A DNA stretch of 64,000 bases from NCBI GenBank assembly GCA_021307315.1, contig JAJSPD010000091.1, positions 62,001-126,000 of the forward strand, read 5' to 3'. Positions 4,102 through 44,268 of the stretch are shown here, piece by piece (within the stretch, counting starts at the first letter, position 1; every line of letters starts with the position of its first letter). A program made the translations under genes and the position numbers. Origin of the DNA: Bisporella sp. PMI_857 (Eukaryota; Ascomycota; Leotiomycetes; Helotiales; Helotiaceae). The notes under the pieces are model-generated. The model ran no database searches, was not told where the DNA came from, and was given only the letters and a program-made list of their open reading frames with translations.

Positions 4102-5774
4102 ATGGCTTTGCTAGAACTTCCATTCCCTTTCTTAGGGCTTTGTGTAGTTTTTGGTCTTGTAAGCCCTACCGATATACATGCTAGCCGTTTCTGACTAACC
4201 CGATATAGTTGCCCTGCTATATTATTGGACTAGCAATTTACAGAGTGTATTTCCATCCCCTGGCTGCATTCCCTGGTCCAAAGCTATGTGCCATCACTCG
4301 AATTCCATGGTTATACAACTTTACCCTGGGCCGACAATCTCATTTTGCGCTCGAGCTACATGAATCCTACGGCCAAGTTGTTCGAATTGCGCCAAATGAG
4401 CTCTCGTATACCCTTGAAGAGGCAGCGAAGGACATTTACGGCTTTCGCCTGGGCAAGCCTGAGATGGGGAAGAATCGGAAGAACTATAGATCCGATCCTT
4501 CAGGCGAGAACATCATCACTGCCAACCGCGAGGACCACTCTCGGTTTCGCAAGAATCTTTCTCATGGATTTTCCGATTCGTCCATGCGCCAACAAGAGCA
4601 ATTGATTCAGAATTATGTCAATCTCCTCATCCAACGACTTGAGGAACACTGCAAGGACGGCGAGGCACCTCTGAACATGTGTTCATGGTACAATTGGACA
4701 ACCTTTGACATCATAGGAGACCTGACTTTCGGGGAGTCATTCGGATGCCTGGAAAATTCGGACTATCATCCTTGGGTCAGCATAATCTTCGATAACATCA
4801 AAGGCGGGGCCATCATGCGTGCGTTCAGCTACATACCATACGGAGAGGAGGCAGCCGAATACTTTGTGCCCAAGAAATTGGTCGCCCGCCACAAGCTTCA
4901 CCGTCAAATGACGCTCGAAAAGGTCACGCACAGGACGCAGCTGGAAGAAGAACGGCCAGATTTCCTGGGCCACATCATGAAGCGGAAGGAGAAGGGTTTC
5001 ACATTCCCCGAGCTGGTGAACAATTCGAATGTTCTCATTCTAGCCGGCAGCGAGACCACAGCAACTATGCTTTCTGGCATGACGTATCTACTGCTGAAAC
5101 ATCCCGCTGTGATGTCCAAGGTCCTGCACGAGGTGCGCTCTTCGTTCAGCAGCATGGACGAAATCACCATTCACTCGACCACCAACCTGAAGTACTTGAT
5201 AGCTTGTATTGAAGAGGGACTGCGCATTTACCCCCCCGTGCCTAACGGGTTCTCGAGAATTGTACCAGAAGGGGGAGATTTCGTCGCCGGAAAATGGGTT
5301 CCAGGTGGAGTAAGTTTTGTCAGAAAAAAAAAACGCCTTGTTCGGGTAGGCGTGTTTACGGCGAGCTAACACCCCCCCCCTCTATAGACAATCGTAGGGT
5401 TAAATTTTCTGGCGGCACAACACTCGCGACACAACTTTCAGGATCCGGACTCGTATATACCGGAGCGATTCCTCAACGAGACCCGTTATGAGAATGATAA
5501 AACGGGGGCTTTCATCCCATTTTCGGCCGGCCCAAGGAACTGCATCGGCAAGAAGTATGATTTCTGAAAACAAAATCTGGCTTTACGTACCATCTTTTGC
5601 TAACCATATATCAACAGCTTGGCATGGGCGGAAATGCGAGTGATTCTGGCGAAAATGCTGCTGAACTTCGACTGGGAACTTGCTCAAGGGGGCGACGACT
5701 GGCTAAACCAAAAGGCTTATGTCATTTGGGAGAAAGGTCCCTTGAATGTGAAGCTAAAGAAGGTTGTTGCATAG
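4102..5774 (+). CDS. Cytochrome P450 monooxygenase (CYP65/Tri11-like)
   Basis: The gene is join(4102-4158, 4209-5309, 5388-5554, 5618-5774), 493 residues. Introns of 50, 78 and 63 nt have GTAAGC, GTAAGT and GTATGA donors. Exon 1 supplies the hydrophobic N-terminal anchor, followed by a VYFHPLAAFPGPK hinge. The I-helix oxygen-binding motif is AGSETT, the K-helix ExxR is EEGLR, PERF follows, and the heme loop FSAGPRNCIG has the thiolate cysteine near residue 438. The AGPRN|CIGKN region spans the last intron, and the frame is kept in every join. The overall look (NWTTFDIIGDLTFGESF) resembles the CYP65 group, which includes isotrichodermin C-15 hydroxylase. Such enzymes hydroxylate secondary metabolites at the ER membrane; the substrate here is unknown. 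It converges on a Zn2Cys6 regulator 590 bp downstream, with no other biosynthetic gene adjacent. Confidence 0.93.
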
Positions 5775-28852: not shown

Positions 28853-29692
28853 TTAGGCTCTACACAATATCTCACCATGTAAAATTGAGAACCATGCATC
28901 CTCATCTTTACCCCATCTCCTCCAACACGCCGCCATCCTCTCCAGATCTTCTTGCTTACAATGTCCACCATCAACCGCAAATCCCCTGAAACTAGACTGT
29001 GTCAACCTCTCCGCCCAAAGATCACTCCACCATGCCCTCTCTTCCTGTGTACTATAACACCAGCTGCCTGTGCTACACGTGATATCCTCCCTTGCAAACC
29101 CAGCTTGGCGGGCCCAAACATGGATATGGGATCCCGGATTTGGATTGCCTCCTTTGGCCTCCGAGACTCGAGTATGGACGTCTTTCCACTCAGCCAGCTC
29201 TGGTAACTCGGGATACCAGGTCATGACGGCGCTCTCGCGCACCGCCACAAGCCCACCGGGCTTCGCAACCCTTCTCATCTCCCTGAGACCCTGGACCGGA
29301 TCTCTGATATGTTGCAGAACCTGATGGGCGTGCACGATGTCAAAGGCGTCATCTTCGAAAGGCAGAGCATGGATGTCGCCTATTTTGAACTCGATGTTCG
29401 TGACATTTTGCTCAGCAGCCAAGGCACGCGCGTGTGCCAGGGGCTCATCTGTATACTCAACTCCAGTGAGATGACCGTCGGAGATGTATTTGGCGAGGTC
29501 AACTGATATGCTGCCTGGTCCGCAGCCTACATCTAGAATTTTCATGTTAGGTTTTAGGCGTGGCAGGAGATACGGGATTGAATTTGTAGCTGTGCGCCAC
29601 GAATGAGTGCGAAGGACGGAAGCACTATGATCTGAGGCGTAGACTCCATCCTTGAGCGCCATATCGGTGTTCTTCGATGCATTGATAGTCAT
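28853..29692 (-). CDS. Class I SAM-dependent methyltransferase (UbiE/COQ5-like)
   Basis: A single-exon gene of 279 codons with an ATG at 29692. The SAM-binding glycine loop is MKILDVGCGPGSIS (about residues 49-62), an acidic residue follows strand 2 (TGVEYTDEP), and motifs II/III read GDIHALPFEDDAFDIVHAHQ and GGLVAVRE. This is the Methyltransf_11/25 fold. The C-terminal 100 residues (HVWARQAGF and a Trp-rich stretch) form the cap. The substrate cannot be read from sequence; relatives methylate quinones, sterols and secondary metabolites. It lies 9 kb from the peptide precursor, so a role as a tailoring enzyme there is possible but unproven. The gene is intact. Confidence 0.92.
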   Translation of the reverse strand: MTINASKNTDMALKDGVYASDHSASVLRTHSWRTATNSIPYLLPRLKPNMKILDVGCGPGSISVDLAKYISDGHLTGVEYTDEPLAHARALAAEQNVTNIEFKIGDIHALPFEDDAFDIVHAHQVLQHIRDPVQGLREMRRVAKPGGLVAVRESAVMTWYPELPELAEWKDVHTRVSEAKGGNPNPGSHIHVWARQAGFAREDITCSTGSWCYSTQEERAWWSDLWAERLTQSSFRGFAVDGGHCKQEDLERMAACWRRWGKDEDAWFSILHGEILCRA

Positions 29693-30332
29693 GCTCTCGG
29701 GTATCTCATGTCACGATGTTGGGCGATCCTCACTTTGAATTTTTATGGGTAGCTTTATCTGAGCATGCGCCGGTGCTTTCTTAGGTAATAGATACTTCAC
29801 ACGCCTCTTGGTACAATGATTTGACTAGTTTTATCAGCGTACTGACTTCATATGCTTTGTGAAATGTTGATTTCAGTTTGTAAGTGGATCACTTGCAGAC
29901 CTCAGGCAGCCATGAAGCACAGCCACACCAATCTGTGATCAAAAACTGATGGCCGAGTGCCTTCTGCTGTACTAGGGCCCGAGGCTACCAGCTTAGAGTC
30001 AGAATACATATTCGGAAGATATAATGGAAGATATAATAGTAGATACCCAAAGCGCGTAATGATAAGACTTAGATTCTGAAGCTAGTTTGCTCACATAAAA
30101 TCAATTATAACAGACTAAAGCCAGATGTACCATATACTATGCAAGTTTTATGTGCTGAACTCCTCGACCAATGCAGTCGAACCGCAAAAGGCGAATGCTC
30201 TTGCAGAGGCACAGTTGCGCCTTGTAGTCTTACAAATACCTCCTAGTCATGCAACCCCTAGCCCAGCGCTCGCAGCAAAAAGTAACAACCGTATAGTTGA
30301 TATGTACATGCTAACCACATGTGCATCCCAAG
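29693..30332. other. Intergenic region, no gene seen
   Basis: This is the promoter side of the methyltransferase gene and the 3' side of the nucleoside-hydrolase-like gene. No supported ORF or RNA gene. Confidence 0.4.
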
Positions 30333-35780: not shown

Positions 35781-38051
35781 ATGGATGCCAAAGGAGTACA
35801 TGGGCCGGCCTGCCATAGAGGTGGTACTTCTTTGGCAGCACAAGAAAAACGAATGGGGAGGATGATCAGGCTGAGCCTTACACTTAGCGTGATGAGTCTG
35901 TGTTTCGTGACCCAGATGTTCTTGACAATGTGGAAGAATGGCTCATTTGACTCTTTCGGCATGCATGCATCGTCACAGAAGGAATATCCAGAGAAGAGAG
36001 GCTGGTGGAGCGTACGAGCTCGGGGCCCTAGACTAGATTCCAGCTAACAGGCATCAGATAACTCCTACCACAGACCTAGTGTGGCATAACTGCTATGAGA
36101 AGTATGACTGTGCAAAATTAGATGTAAGAGAAACCAAACTCGATATAATGAAATGTATTAAATCAGAAAATAGGTTCCGCTCGATTGGATTGATCCTTCA
36201 GATGAACTTCGAGCTTCAATAGCTATTATAAGATATAATGCCACAGATCGAGAAAACTACAGAGGGCCAGTGTTCATTAATCCTGGTCTGTTCTAAACCC
36301 CTTAACTAGCATAAACTTACCTGGTGTACAGGCGGCCCTGGAGGATCTGGTGTGTGGTTTGTGAAACGCCTCGCACCATACTATCAAATGGTTGTTGGGA
36401 AGAATCACGTAAGACGCCTTATGAACGTCCTGAACAATATTCTAATGGTCTTCGGCTTAGGATATCATCAGCTTCGATCCTCGTGGCGGTGAGTGATGTT
36501 CTTTTTGTGTAGAGTTGTGACCCTTATAAGCTCATACTTCTAGTGGGAATATCCACGCCTCGAATCGACTGCTGGGAATCCGACGAGAATGCTCGTATCT
36601 GGGAAATGAAAGATGTAGAAGTTATCGATGCACATCAGGGTACATTGTATGATGCCTATGCTCATGCGTCGGCCTTCTCAAAGCAATGTGCAAGCATGAT
36701 TGGGGGTGGCAACCGGACAAGCACACTTCTATCGGATAGAAGTCTAGCAGAAGCAGGTCCTGGTAGGTTTGTATCAACAGCATCTGTGGCCCGTGACATG
36801 CTTGAAATTATGGAAAAGGCTGGCCAGAAGAAGTTGAGATACTGGGGCTTTAGCTATGGCACGGTGTTGGGAACCACGTTTGCAACAATGTTCCCCGACA
36901 GAATCGATCGAATGGTAAACGACGGTACGTTTTAGCTTGATCTGACAGAAACTTCCTAATGTATGTAGGCAACGTAGATGCAGTAGAGTTTACCGCGGGA
37001 AATGGCACACACTTCGTTCAGGACACAGACAAGGTAATGGATGCGTTCTACCGATTCTGCCATCAGGCTGGCCCTGAAAATTGCACATTTTATGCCTCGT
37101 CGCCAGGAGAGATCGAAGCTAGACTTGAACGCCTTCTAAAAACCATTCGAAAGCATCCAATCATCGTTCCAGCTCCGCAGTTCTCCAACAAGAGGCCCGA
37201 AGTGGTGTCTTTCTCCTCCGTACGGCGTATGATCGCCAGTGCACTATACAGGCCATTGGTGATGTTTCCTTCACTCGCAGATGCTCTTGCAGCGCTCGAA
37301 GAAGGTAATGGGCGTCCATTTATCGATTTCTCCGGCCAGGGAGCTGGGGATCCCATTCTCTGTGAAAACGAGCCTGGTCCAACACCCGAGCTACCAGAAG
37401 TAGAAGACTCCCCAGATGCTACCAACGCAATCCTTTGCTCCGATGGTGGGCTTATGACGGATACTGCTGATGAATTTGGAAGTTATGTGGATAAGTTGGT
37501 AGCTTTGAGCAAGAGCGCAGGAGCCACAATGGCCCACATGCGGTTAGCATGTATGGGTTGGACGGTTGAGGCAAAATGGAGATTCGCAGGTATGGAAAAC
37601 CCATATTCTCGTCATATGATTCTGACAAATCGCGTTAGGTCCATTTGAAGGAAACACTAGCTTCCCAATCTTGTGGGTGGCAAACACAGGAGATAACGTA
37701 ACACCTCTACGGAGTGCAGTGCAAAATGCCAAAGGATTTCCAGGATCCGTGATCCTTGTTCTCGATACCTATGGTGTAAGTATTGCTCCTCATGCATGTA
37801 ATATGCACTTGTGATGCTGATTAGATAAATAGCACACAAGCTTAACCATGCCATCACGATGCGCAGCAAAGGCAATTAATGCATATTTCCAGGACGGAAA
37901 GCTCCCGCCACCAGATACCGTCTGTGATCCAGATATGATGCCGTTTGATAAATTCAACATTACGGCTTTACGTCCCGGCAGCAGCGACGCAATTGAAGAA
38001 TTAGACTCTGCTTTACTGAACTTGATGTTAGCACCGGTTATCAAACCATGA
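35781..38051 (+). CDS. Membrane-anchored S33 / tripeptidyl aminopeptidase-like alpha/beta hydrolase
   Basis: Nine exons: 35781-36011, 36058-36123, 36174-36285, 36332-36408, 36461-36488, 36544-36924, 36969-37589, 37639-37775 and 37833-38051; 623 residues, eight introns of 44-57 nt, all in frame. A short cytosolic N-terminus and one hydrophobic helix (about residues 29-48, LSLTLSVMSLCFVTQMF) suggest a type II membrane protein. The hydrolase core has VPLDWIDPSD, the oxyanion region NPGGPGGSG, DIISFDPRGVG, the nucleophile elbow WGFSYGTVLG with the catalytic Ser, the acid in NTGDNVTPL, and the catalytic His in YGHTSL, followed by a TAP-like C-terminal domain. Such enzymes release short peptides from N-termini. 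It is 560 bp from the UstYa gene, so a role in trimming the neighbouring peptide precursor is an attractive inference. Confidence 0.92.
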
Positions 38052-38607: not shown

Positions 38608-39873
38608 CTATAGAAGATCATGGTTCTTAAAATTGAGACTAGGGTCAAGTCTGTGTCCCAGTTCTGTACCGCCATGTCCAAGCCACGGAGCTGGCCAAAC
38701 CCATGTATCATTTGGCAAAGGGAATTTCGCCATAGCCCCAAACTTTTCTCTATCCACTGCATTGCTATTTGCCCAATCTACTAAAGCGCCAAAGTCGCGG
38801 CATTTGTGGCTGATGCTGAAGTCGGGCCACGGCTCTTTGAAAGTTTCCATCCACGAGTAGGTGTACATGTCGGTCGACCCATAGCATTTTAGATTTTGAA
38901 GCAGATTATCTACGCAGTGGGTGAGATGGACCCACGGAAAGGTATCATTATTAGGAAGATCGGTTTCGGCACCCGGATATCTGCTGAAAGCTGCTCGACG
39001 AAGCATGTTTACGCAACTGGTGCGTATGACTCAAATTAGCATAATTGTTTGTTTCACCTTGAAGCCACGAATATCCGAGATTCAAGCTGAAAATATTGGA
39101 ATTTTGAATACATACTGAATTTGGTGAAACTTCATAATTTAGTTTTTATCTCGAAAATATCAGGGGAGGAAACCTACCATATCCATCGATGCCATATATG
39201 CATTGCCACCGAGCCCCCACTGAGGGGTTTAGGTAGTTTTTAGGTGAATTTGGATAGGTACTTACGTATTCATCTGGATACCTGGCAGCAGTATTGGGAT
39301 CTTTACCCAGCTTCAACACCTGCTCTTTGGTAATCACAAACATCGGGAATTGCTCATATGTATCGTGCCAGAGAGCATCTGTTGCTGGCCCGGGACCTAT
39401 TCTGCCCATTCCACGGGACTCGGGTGCGAAGAGAGTACCGTTCATTTGTGTGGTATGTATTGGGATTTCGGTGTCATCTAATATTGGAGCTGCATGTCAT
39501 TTGAGCTAAGTTAGTCGAAGGTCTCTTTGCGCCGGGGATAAGAGAAACAATGGAGTTTACAGAAGTATGATGTCAACTTTAGCGCACTTCTATAGTCGCA
39601 ATATCCCTCGGTTAGATGATTTGATCTGTCATAAGGCGAGAAATAGAGGGGCTTGATAAAGATAAAGGTCATGACGATATTCGAAGTCAATGATATCCAT
39701 AGCAAGAACTCGAAATATCTAAGCCTAATACATTGCGGAAATAGTGTCTGATTAAGGACGGCCACCCCTTTCTGTACCTCGCAAACCTGTTCCGAAGGCA
39801 TGATATTGTATTTGAATTGCATGAGCATCGTGGGTATCATGAAGGAAAGGAATGAGGAGGTGGAAGTTTTCAT
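38608..39873 (-). CDS. UstYa-family (DUF3328) oxidase with a 14-nt microexon
   Basis: Five exons: 39873-39561, 39489-39266, 39219-39178, 39129-39116 and 39016-38608; 333 residues. One membrane helix lies near residue 60-80 (FEFLLWISLTSNIVMTFIF). The family landmarks then follow: YFSPILDDTE, ITKEQVLKLG, YPDEYWG, NAYMASMDM, the first HxxHC (FHQIHC) and NMLRR, then the second HxxHC (HLTHC). The first HxxHC is encoded by the 14-nt exon TTTCACCAAATTCA, bounded by AG and GTATGT; skipping it destroys both motif and frame. UstYa proteins crosslink Tyr-containing cores of ribosomal peptides or hydroxylate and halogenate small molecules. The C-terminus is rich in Trp-Pro (WVWPAPW). The start could also be the ATG at 39801. 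It is transcribed away from the repeat precursor. Confidence 0.9.
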
Positions 39874-40562
39874 CCCCCTGTCAGAGCTGCCCAAGATTTA
39901 GAGAGGAGAAAAGCAATGTAACTTCATAATGGTTGCGCACGAAAAACCAAACGTTACTATACATGACCAAACCAAGCTGCATCTAGCCGCCTACCGCGCA
40001 TCACTCCAAGGCTCTGCAATCCGAAGGGTTTTTTTCTATGTCGAGGCCGAACGATATCACTCATATAAACTACATAAACAGTCACAGTCTCCCAATTCTC
40101 CAAGTTCCAATGTCCATCGCTTTAATAAGCATAGATGGGTGCTTAAGTTAGTCCATAACACAGAGTAACCACCTGCCGTTAACTAGGTTGATGATGTTGC
40201 AAAAGTCGGAAGCATGATATATGCGACTCGCCGCAACACATTTGATGGCACACGAAATTTTTGCAGTACTTGATTCCACTACCTTTAAACCTTGGCAGCC
40301 TGCGATGCTTACTCCGTTAGGTGGGGACGATTTATGACTTGCTGAGAGTAAGTCATAACACAAGTAGGACAGTACAGCCATAGTGGCATGATCATTCTAT
40401 AAGTATGCATTCTATGTTATCGTGTGTTTTACAGCACGACTTTAGTTCCGAGTCCTGCGTCACCTATCTTGTATTTAAGGGTGGCTTTCCCCTCTTAAAC
40501 ATCGTAGAAATACCAATCGATCCAATTAGTCTATATTAGGAGATCGTTTACCACATCGAAAT
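39874..40562. promoter_or_regulatory. Divergent promoter region of the UstYa gene and peptide precursor
   Basis: The 689 nt between the two starts contain no supported ORF. A TATA-like TATTTAA at 40472-40478 lies 85 nt upstream of the precursor ATG, and the DNA just after it (TTTCCCCTC) is pyrimidine-rich as in fungal initiator regions. A shared region would let one regulator switch both genes, but I cannot name a binding site. Confidence 0.45.
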
Positions 40563-40979
40563 ATGCATTTCATCAAGTTCACCACCTTCCTCAGTCTTTC
40601 TCTTCTCACTGTTGCCCTCCCGCTCTACGATGCATCTTCGTCAAGCTCGGCCAATGCCGGTTCAGAGATCCAGAAACGACTTGTAACATACCTGCTCTCA
40701 GATGGAGAAGTGCAGAAGCGGCTCGCGACGTACGCGCTTTCCGATGGAGAATTAGAGAAAAGATTTACCACATATATACGCTCCGATGAAGAGCTGGAGA
40801 AACGGTAAGACGACTTTCTTCATTCTAGCTAAATTTCAAACGCAACAAAAGTCCTGGAGCTCGAGGTTCTAATGCTAATGTTTGTATGTAGATTCGCAAC
40901 GTATCTTGTGGATCTTCCAACAGAGGTGGCTAGCAAGGGAATGGCAAGAGACGCTATCGGTGTTGAACGGAAGGCATAA
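40563..40979 (+). CDS. KEX2-processed repeat precursor of a dikaritin-type ribosomal peptide
   Basis: Two exons, 40563-40804 and 40892-40979, give 109 residues; the 87-nt intron splits the last Lys-Arg site and keeps frame. A signal peptide occupies about residues 1-20, followed by a Ser-rich spacer. Lys-Arg pairs stand at 38-39, 52-53, 66-67 and 80-81, exactly every 14 residues. Each is followed by a segment with Thr-Tyr at fixed spacing: LVTYLLSDGEVQ, LATYALSDGELE, FTTYIRSDEELE, and a last, diverged FATYLVDLP. Acidic linkers before Lys-Arg (SDGE) are typical of this precursor class. Cutting by KexB in the Golgi would free up to four related peptides whose Tyr is the expected substrate of the neighbouring UstYa enzyme. 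Core length and final product cannot be told from sequence. No family beyond the general pattern is recognised. Confidence 0.85.
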
Positions 40980-41403: not shown

Positions 41404-41416
41404 GCAGATGAATTAT

Positions 41417-41488
41417 TGACCTGCGCAGGGATCGAACCTGCAATCTCCTGATTCGTAGTCAGACGCCTTGCCATTGGGCCAGCAGGCC
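41417..41488 (-). tRNA. tRNA-Arg (ACG), no intron
   Basis: The acceptor GGCCTGC pairs with GCAGGTC (one G-U). The D arm is GCCC/GGCG-like, and the T arm contains GTTCGAT. The anticodon arm is TCTGA-CTACGAA-TCAGG, so U33 precedes anticodon ACG, which reads CGN arginine codons after A34-to-I editing. The discriminator is A. It lies between the peptide precursor and the old yellow enzyme. Confidence 0.92.
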
Positions 41489-42683
41489 ATACTTTGTTGC
41501 ATATCTGAGTTTTGCGTTTCGTATTTGGCTACATATGTAGAATAAAAACCAGCTGTATGGGATAACAGGGTCCCAGAAGCACCCCTGAACTGGAGCGGTA
41601 CTTCTAAACTTTCATAATGTCTAATTGTTTTGCTGAGATCCTTTGAAAGATCAGTAGTCATGATATCAGTAGTTATTTCAGGAAACGAAACATACCAATG
41701 TGCGCTTCGCTCCGCAGATCTCTGCAGTAGCGCTGATCGAGCTTGCTTCTATATTAGTTGCCCTTTATATGTATATTAGTTACCATAGGAGACCTACGGG
41801 ATGTCATAACTTTCACTCCGGGATCTGTAGATTCACCTCCTTACAGGCTCCACATTCACACGCCAGACTACACCGTAAGGAGCATTATGGTGCATCGATA
41901 TGTTTTAATCCGACGCTGCTTGCTTCCTGTAGCAGCTATTTCAGAAGAATATGTTTAAATATCAATTTTGCCAGTTGATATGGCTGATGCTAACCTCTAA
42001 TCCTGGCCAAGACTCTGGCGTTAAGCCATTTAGCATTTGGTGCACATGATTTTGACCTTAGGTCCGCAAACAAGTCATGAAAACAAAAATAATTTGTCCC
42101 CCTTTTATATTAATGAGACTGTGATTCATTAGAATACAACAGCTGGCCATACAACTCCCTTGTCATTAATCCGGGCTACCACAGTTATTCTGGAACAATG
42201 TATACAATGGGTCTATCTTTAGATTTGTTATGGGAGGACTCATTATGAAACCATTGGATTAAGTACTGTCATATTCTCATAAAATATCCTAGGCTTTTGC
42301 ATAATCAAAGCAGGAAATCTTCCGACCCCGCCTTGGCATATGCGATATGGCTTGTGGTAGCTCAATATTATATGCAGCATCATGCATACATGCTTATTAA
42401 CATATACTTTCACGATCCATTGGCTACCGTATGTATCTCGAAAATTTCGTGTTTTTTTGCTTCAGCCAACGGGGCTCCGGCAAGCCAATATAGCAGTACT
42501 ATTCACCAAAGCGGGATAACCGGGAAGTCTACGGGATTGTTCTATAAATCCCACATCTCCCCTCAGCATTTCCATATCGAATATGATATACTACCATTTT
42601 ATATTGATTTGATCGGCACCCAGTAGTGTATCCTCCATCGCCATCTTGAGTTATTCCTTTGTCATATTAATTATACACGCAAC
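41489..42683. other. Intergenic region, no gene seen
   Basis: Two overlapping ORFs at 41700-41978 and one at 42297-42626 have hydrophobic patches but no start context or motif, and are not called. The region upstream of 42684 should hold the old yellow enzyme promoter. Confidence 0.4.

Positions 42684-44268
<1,585 letters not shown>

Follow-up and report, generated by a model that had tools for sequence, protein, structure and literature searches.

A candidate dikaritin-type locus in Bisporella sp. PMI_857 pairing a Lys-Arg repeat precursor with a divergent UstYa-family oxidase

The DNA analysed here, hereafter the window, is a stretch of 64,000 nucleotides (C276:62001-126000) from a genome of 55.6 Mb in 284 contigs. 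Its central part carries the following features:

35781..38051, plus strand: gene for a TAP-like alpha/beta hydrolase of S33 type, 623 aa, with a model of nine exons built by eye
38608..39873, minus strand: UstYa/DUF3328 oxidase gene, five exons, 333 aa
39874..40562, no strand: divergent intergenic (promoter) region, 689 bp
40563-40804, plus strand: precursor exon 1, signal-like N-terminus, then three full units of 14 residues, each with KR at its end
40805-40891, plus strand: precursor intron, GTAAGA...TAG
40892-40979, plus strand: precursor exon 2, with FATYLV as the fourth unit, followed by the C-terminal tail

According to our splice model, the two-exon gene at 40563-40979 (plus strand) encodes a precursor of 109 aa that contains no Trp and whose N-terminus is signal-like by eye, with a hydropathy maximum of 1.71 at residues 3-21 (19-residue window). 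The initial annotation had described a 109-residue precursor with KR sites 14 residues apart and a Thr-Tyr at a fixed place after each, and both descriptions were borne out: the KR pairs lie at residues 38, 52, 66 and 80, spaced by exactly 14, and Thr-Tyr occupies positions 3-4 in 4/4 units (LVTYLLSDGEVQKR, LATYALSDGELEKR, FTTYIRSDEELEKR and FATYLVDLPTEVAS). The sequences following the four KR pairs are LVTYLLSDGEVQ, LATYALSDGELE, FTTYIRSDEELE and FATYLVDLPTEV. All four copies have only [LF]-x-T-Y-x-x in common: exactly three residues stand before each repeat Tyr, the residue at Tyr +2 is L, L, R or V, and the acidic SDGExx stretch has no counterpart in the last copy. The intron divides the Arg codon of the last KR and is supported by the fourth unit (FATY) of exon 2, which stays in the repeat register. 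At 40803-40808 the intron donor reads as a stop codon right after the KR of the third unit; retention of the intron would give an 81-aa form with three complete units, ending in KR.

The precursor found nothing above the cut-off in Pfam and NCBIfam (best E 0.07 and 0.095) and no paralogue in its own genome at E values up to 10, the two matches there being its own exons. The missing family match and the single copy would suit a frame that is an accidental repetitive ORF and not a gene, a reading that we consider extremely improbable in view of the simulations, the register of the exon 2 repeat and the third-position bias among the copies. Our repeat scan looked, in open stretches no shorter than 40 residues, for two KR- or RR-bounded units that are equally spaced, by 8-40 residues, and identical at 45% or more of their positions (5 residues as a minimum). 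The precursor was the single place found in the 64-kb window, and 0 of 150 third-order Markov sequences of 64 kb contained such a place; the repeat pattern is not due to chance. KR spacing alone is uninformative: an unrelated frame at locus L051, discussed below, has a hydrophobic start and two KR 14 apart without a repeat, so that KR pairs at this distance are by themselves no evidence. Among repeats 1-3, differences at codon positions 1, 2 and 3 numbered 14, 8 and 23 (each of 42), and among the first six codons of the four copies 15, 9 and 27 (each of 36); the pairs compared are not independent, and the counts are hence given without a P value. Since the differences fall mostly on third codon positions, the peptide sequence of the repeats is probably what is kept, as would be expected under selection on the peptide.

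The minus-strand gene next to the precursor was modelled with exons at 39873-39561, 39489-39266, 39219-39178, 39129-39116 and 39016-38608, open throughout. Its product matches PF11807 over the full length (profile 9-220 of 220, 172.8 bits against a curated cut-off of 25, E 1.2e-50) and carries HQIHC at 195 and HLTHC at 228, as the earlier claim of a neighbour with both HxxHC motifs had it. It also has one hydrophobic segment, at about 54-74, which fits the N-terminal anchor of the family; the score, both motifs and this segment are together the marks by which membership of PF11807 was judged. The HQIHC motif is interrupted by an intron and HLTHC is not, and the 14-base exon that starts HQIHC follows a less usual AAG acceptor, the weakest point of the gene model. 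A search of solved structures for sequence relatives of the protein gave 0 matches up to E 10.

The start codons of the two genes face away from each other; the pair had been described as divergent and 690 bp apart, of which the orientation stands and the distance measures 689 bp. The divergent region contains one 12-nt inverted repeat (40332-40358) and two 11-nt direct pairs, none of them convincing; shared promoter motifs gave nothing convincing.

We surveyed the surroundings with an exon-wise six-frame Pfam scan of 26-51 kb of the window (E up to 0.001), which genes of short exons can escape. The scan returned a single DUF3328 gene and no S41 peptidase, transporter or tyrosinase. Besides the TAP-like hydrolase and Oxidored_FMN, it brought up a 2OG-FeII oxygenase (PF13532), an aspartyl protease and a methyltransferase domain (28853-29710), the last of these about 9 kb away from the UstYa gene. 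The NADH:flavin oxidoreductase gene (PF00724, Oxidored_FMN) lies at about 43.03-44.27 kb (43034-44268) on the plus strand; its two matching frames are separated by a tract of 29 A (43435-43463). A tRNA-Arg (acg) gene is situated at 41416-41489 on the minus strand, between this gene and the precursor. We rejected the Oxidored_FMN gene as a cluster member: the tRNA-Arg gene intervenes and nothing links it to the pair.

UstYa/DUF3328 is a large, expanded family in this genome, with 75 exon matches to PF11807 that we grouped into about 39 places. The kexin P domain (PF01483) has one match. A first neighbour scan covered, in addition to the window, 32 loci of about 3.4 kb (108,378 bases), namely 30 UstYa matches, including the window's own and some overlapping ones, and 2 precursor matches. 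Within 1.5 kb on each side of the 30 UstYa places it detected no repeat precursor besides the known one. A wider scan of 51 loci (207,639 bases, overlaps, ten TAP-like loci and one kexin locus included) added one repeat precursor, on C216, and none in the stretches around C275, C200, C112, C207 and C1 at the same setting. A filter for a hydrophobic start and at least two KR, applied to eight stretches, returned one unrelated frame with KR 14 apart and no repeat.

The additional precursor lies at locus L051 (C216:2000-11900), where a repeat frame (3179-2493, minus) is divergent from a UstYa match (4417-4962, plus) at a distance of 1.2-1.6 kb. The frame, modelled over its repeat part, has four Tyr-bearing units, 23-24 residues long, of which GEAVYDNPKTATLPYAPNSLEAKR gives the type. 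The UstYa gene of this pair (L004) is the paralogue with the best single match to the UstYa protein of the window (35% identity over 217 residues, 154 bits). The fungus thus probably has at least two precursor/UstYa pairs, and the finding of the C216 pair indicates that the scan detects others of this kind. The UstYa paralogue closest by identity is at C1:1127035 (57% over 70 residues); in the 9.9 kb around it, the other clear Pfam matches, from a search of 5/6 frames, were THOC5-like and alternative oxidase, and no KR-repeat precursor was found. Near this paralogue, at L050 3664-3863 (C1), a short and imperfect repeat has a period of 33 nt; read by eye, EIDS-like units recur in it.

We consider it likely that the locus is a small dikaritin-type (ust-RiPS) system, in which a single UstYa enzyme would oxidise the precursor units at Tyr, and its product would probably be a cyclic peptide that belongs to a known class but has yet to be characterised. 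In this class the signal directs the precursor into the secretory route, kexin cuts it, a carboxypeptidase takes off the KR and a DUF3328 enzyme oxidises the Tyr-containing unit. For the present locus we infer the processing, the enzyme-peptide pairing, the crosslink and the product as follows. The precursor would enter the secretory pathway, where kexin would cut after each Lys-Arg and a carboxypeptidase would trim KR from the released units. UstYa, probably luminal, membrane-anchored and equipped with an HxxHC...HxxHC-type binuclear copper site, would then oxidise the invariant Tyr, most likely by ring closure from the Tyr oxygen to a nearby beta-carbon. The core probably lies within the first six residues of the unit, and the acidic SDGExx part, which the last copy lacks and which is for that reason likelier a spacer or recognition element, would stand outside it. 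An ether from Tyr to the +2 residue would be a guess, weakened by the Arg at +2 of unit 3. The crosslink of ustiloxin and phomopsin runs from Tyr to the Ile at +2 (YAIG, YVIG, YVIP; PMC7329392), and it is the place of this Ile that one unit here fills with Arg. The units contain none of YAIG, YVIG, YVIP and FYYTGY (PMC7329392, PMC6514808), in agreement with the earlier expectation of a core unlike those known.

The initial annotation had gone further in proposing that the two genes form a dikaritin-type pair. The published sequence hallmarks of such a pair are in place, and the action of UstYa, the Tyr crosslink and expression are predicted from them. By the DUF3328-based definition (as cited in PMC12048977), tandem KR repeats and a neighbouring gene with the double HxxHC motif are both present. 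An older definition with five genes (Ding 2015, cited in PMC12048977) lists a tyrosinase, a methyltransferase, several DUF3328 genes and a transporter or peptidase, and against it the locus falls short, with one DUF3328 gene, a methyltransferase domain, a TAP-like hydrolase and no tyrosinase or transporter in 26-51 kb; functional dikaritin clusters missing some of these genes are described as later reports (PMC12048977). In the survey of KR-repeat precursors (KEPs), DUF3328 genes are most frequent right beside the precursor gene; Tyr is present in 65.6% of the repeats of DUF3328 pairs and in 38.2% of those without DUF3328 (PMC7329392). The kexin P-domain match in the genome and the second pair on C216 also speak for the dikaritin reading. 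Counting against it, there are only four units and they are variable, most UstYa genes of the genome have no precursor within 1.5 kb, and the scan of 26-51 kb shows neither a tyrosinase nor a transporter nor an S41 peptidase.

Alternatively, kexin may process the repeat precursor into linear peptides with a signalling or surface role, with UstYa as a chance neighbour or a member of another pathway. Most published repeat precursors (6,120/7,878) indeed have no DUF3328 gene nearby (PMC7329392), and the many UstYa genes of this genome (the 75 exon matches) make chance neighbours possible. About 39 UstYa places in 55.6 Mb, on the other hand, render chance adjacency unlikely, at roughly <1% by an estimate that assumes some 16,000 genes, and the divergent arrangement at 689 bp and the Tyr kept in every unit also speak against it. 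The absence of Trp sets the precursor apart from alpha-factor-type pheromones, which have a WXW motif (PMC7329392). On balance we regard linear peptides as unlikely. There is a slim chance that the two genes do cooperate and that UstYa adds a hydroxyl group to the units, or oxidises them in another way, with no ring being formed. Hydroxylation and halogenation are on record for PF11807 enzymes, as is their presence in polyketide and non-ribosomal pathways (PMC12435403; PMC12048977); one DUF3328 enzyme that shares the double motif, CctR, acts as a hydroxylase (PMC12435403). In the characterised precursor-type pathways of ustiloxin, asperipin and phomopsin, by contrast, it is ring formation at Tyr that has been linked to DUF3328 enzymes (PMC7329392, PMC6514808); the Tyr of the present precursor is invariant. 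Oxidation with ring closure at this Tyr is the reading that we prefer and follow below.

On the side of the UstYa gene away from the precursor, and tail to tail with it, lies the TAP-like hydrolase gene, which the initial annotation does not mention. Its product matches PF00561 (E 3.8e-12) and PF08386 (E 9.1e-10) and has a hydrophobic anchor at about 31-49, ahead of the alpha/beta hydrolase core, as well as a TAP-like C-terminal domain. Among solved chains it comes closest to Hip1 and carboxylesterase A (E about 7e-26), both mycobacterial. By eye, the candidate triad consists of the Ser in GFSYG, the Asp in NTGDN (NTGDNVTP) and the His in GHTS; these three stretches align with Hip1, and the triad looks apparently intact. 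Both Pfam domains and a Ser-Asp-His triad, the features that define the TAP-like family, are thus found.

The TAP family is named for tripeptidyl aminopeptidase, and the hydrolase is a possible trimming peptidase for the precursor units; its membership in the cluster is one that we infer. In a three-gene dikaritin system of this kind, which we hold to be rather improbable, a membrane-anchored TAP-like tripeptidyl peptidase would remove LVT, LAT, FTT and FAT from the units that kexin releases. Because exactly three residues precede each repeat Tyr, the Tyr would become the N-terminus, and the trimmed units would read YLLS, YALS, YIRS and YLVD. The ustiloxin and phomopsin cores YAIG and YVIP begin with Tyr, as units trimmed by three would. 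A precedent for N-terminal trimming is found in pheromone precursors, from which STE13 removes XA or XP dipeptides (PMC7329392); maturation there proceeds in steps of two, whereas the proposed TAP-like counterpart would take steps of three. A 2019 review describes the proteases that cut away the flanks of the ustiloxin core as still unknown (PMC6514808), and tripeptide trimming, if true, would fill this gap in dikaritin maturation. Tripeptide trimming is speculative though testable.

Several points count against trimming. Substrate specificity of a TAP-like enzyme cannot be read from its sequence, and TAP-like genes are ordinary in this genome, with 10 matches to PF08386 (two of which, on C241 and C263, have similar scores and may represent a single gene). 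Two of the 10 have a UstYa place at no more than 10 kb (P 0.009, and 0.13 once the match in the window is left out); for a distance of 6 kb the values are P 0.004 and 0.08, respectively. The proximity is a hint only. At C275:57146-73962 (L047-L049) there are several UstYa genes and a TAP-like match about 5 kb past the last one. This TAP-like protein is a distant relative of that in the window (28% identity), and the C275 UstYa cluster contains no repeat precursor at the settings used. Among the papers listed by literature searches, none pairs DUF3328 with a tripeptidyl term.

As a kind, precursor/UstYa pairs are common and the field is crowded, and the locus adds another. The survey of 1,461 fungal genomes lists 7,878 KEPs, 1,758 of them with DUF3328 nearby, in 838 types and 2,560 stand-alone cases (PMC7329392); nine dikaritin clusters are reported from Venturia inaequalis (PMC9632046), and in lichen fungi double-motif DUF3328 genes are described as widespread, there without repeat precursors (PMC12048977). 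A full-text literature search with the core strings and their KR borders, its scope excluding published KEP tables, returned one string once, in work on a tryptophan side-chain oxidase. Without a trimming role for the TAP-like hydrolase, the locus is one more among many such loci. Its value lies in repeats that vary naturally around an invariant Thr-Tyr, the last of them without the acidic follower, and the clean minimal system of one precursor and one UstYa is suited to asking which substrate features a DUF3328 copper enzyme reads.

In UstA, KR presumably follows the core directly, in which case the order here is the reverse. The gigA repeats presumably differ from those of the present precursor. 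The UstA core is flanked by ED and KR (PMC6514808), whereas here TY stands just after KR and the acidic part comes after TY. Epichloecyclins (gigA) have four repeats, KR sites and oxidative Tyr cyclisation (PMC6514808), and the locus likewise has four KR repeats with Tyr. More generally, KEPs consist of a secretion signal and KR-separated repeats (PMC7329392); a signal-like N-terminus and such repeats are present here in kind, the numerical thresholds of the survey aside.

On the enzyme side, CctR has HxxHC(x)nHxxHC and a single hydrophobic segment near its N-terminus (PMC12435403), as does the UstYa protein of the window. The double motif of CctR is a copper site required for activity, which alanine mutants lose (PMC12435403). 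The CctR substrate is a non-ribosomal cyclic peptide that becomes hydroxylated, whereas UstYa here adjoins the repeat precursor gene.

The ustiloxin and phomopsin systems have a signal peptide, to which the signal-like N-terminus here would correspond, and resemble the present one in their KR repeats of typically 13 and 14 residues, UstYa-type enzymes and core Tyr (PMC7329392, PMC6514808); they differ in having a tyrosinase and two or five DUF3328 genes, against one UstYa and no tyrosinase in 26-51 kb here. Asperipin-2a has a core FYYTGY and repeats of typically 8 residues (PMC7329392), unlike the 14-residue repeats with one Tyr each of the present precursor, and its cluster includes a transporter and an isoflavone-type reductase, neither of which was found near this pair, where a TAP-like hydrolase stands instead. 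In gene content it is nevertheless alike: the asperipin-2a cluster of Aspergillus flavus (aprA, aprY, aprT, aprR) is described as four genes without a tyrosinase, as in 26-51 kb here, and combines, like the present locus, a repeat precursor with a single UstYa homologue (PMC6514808).
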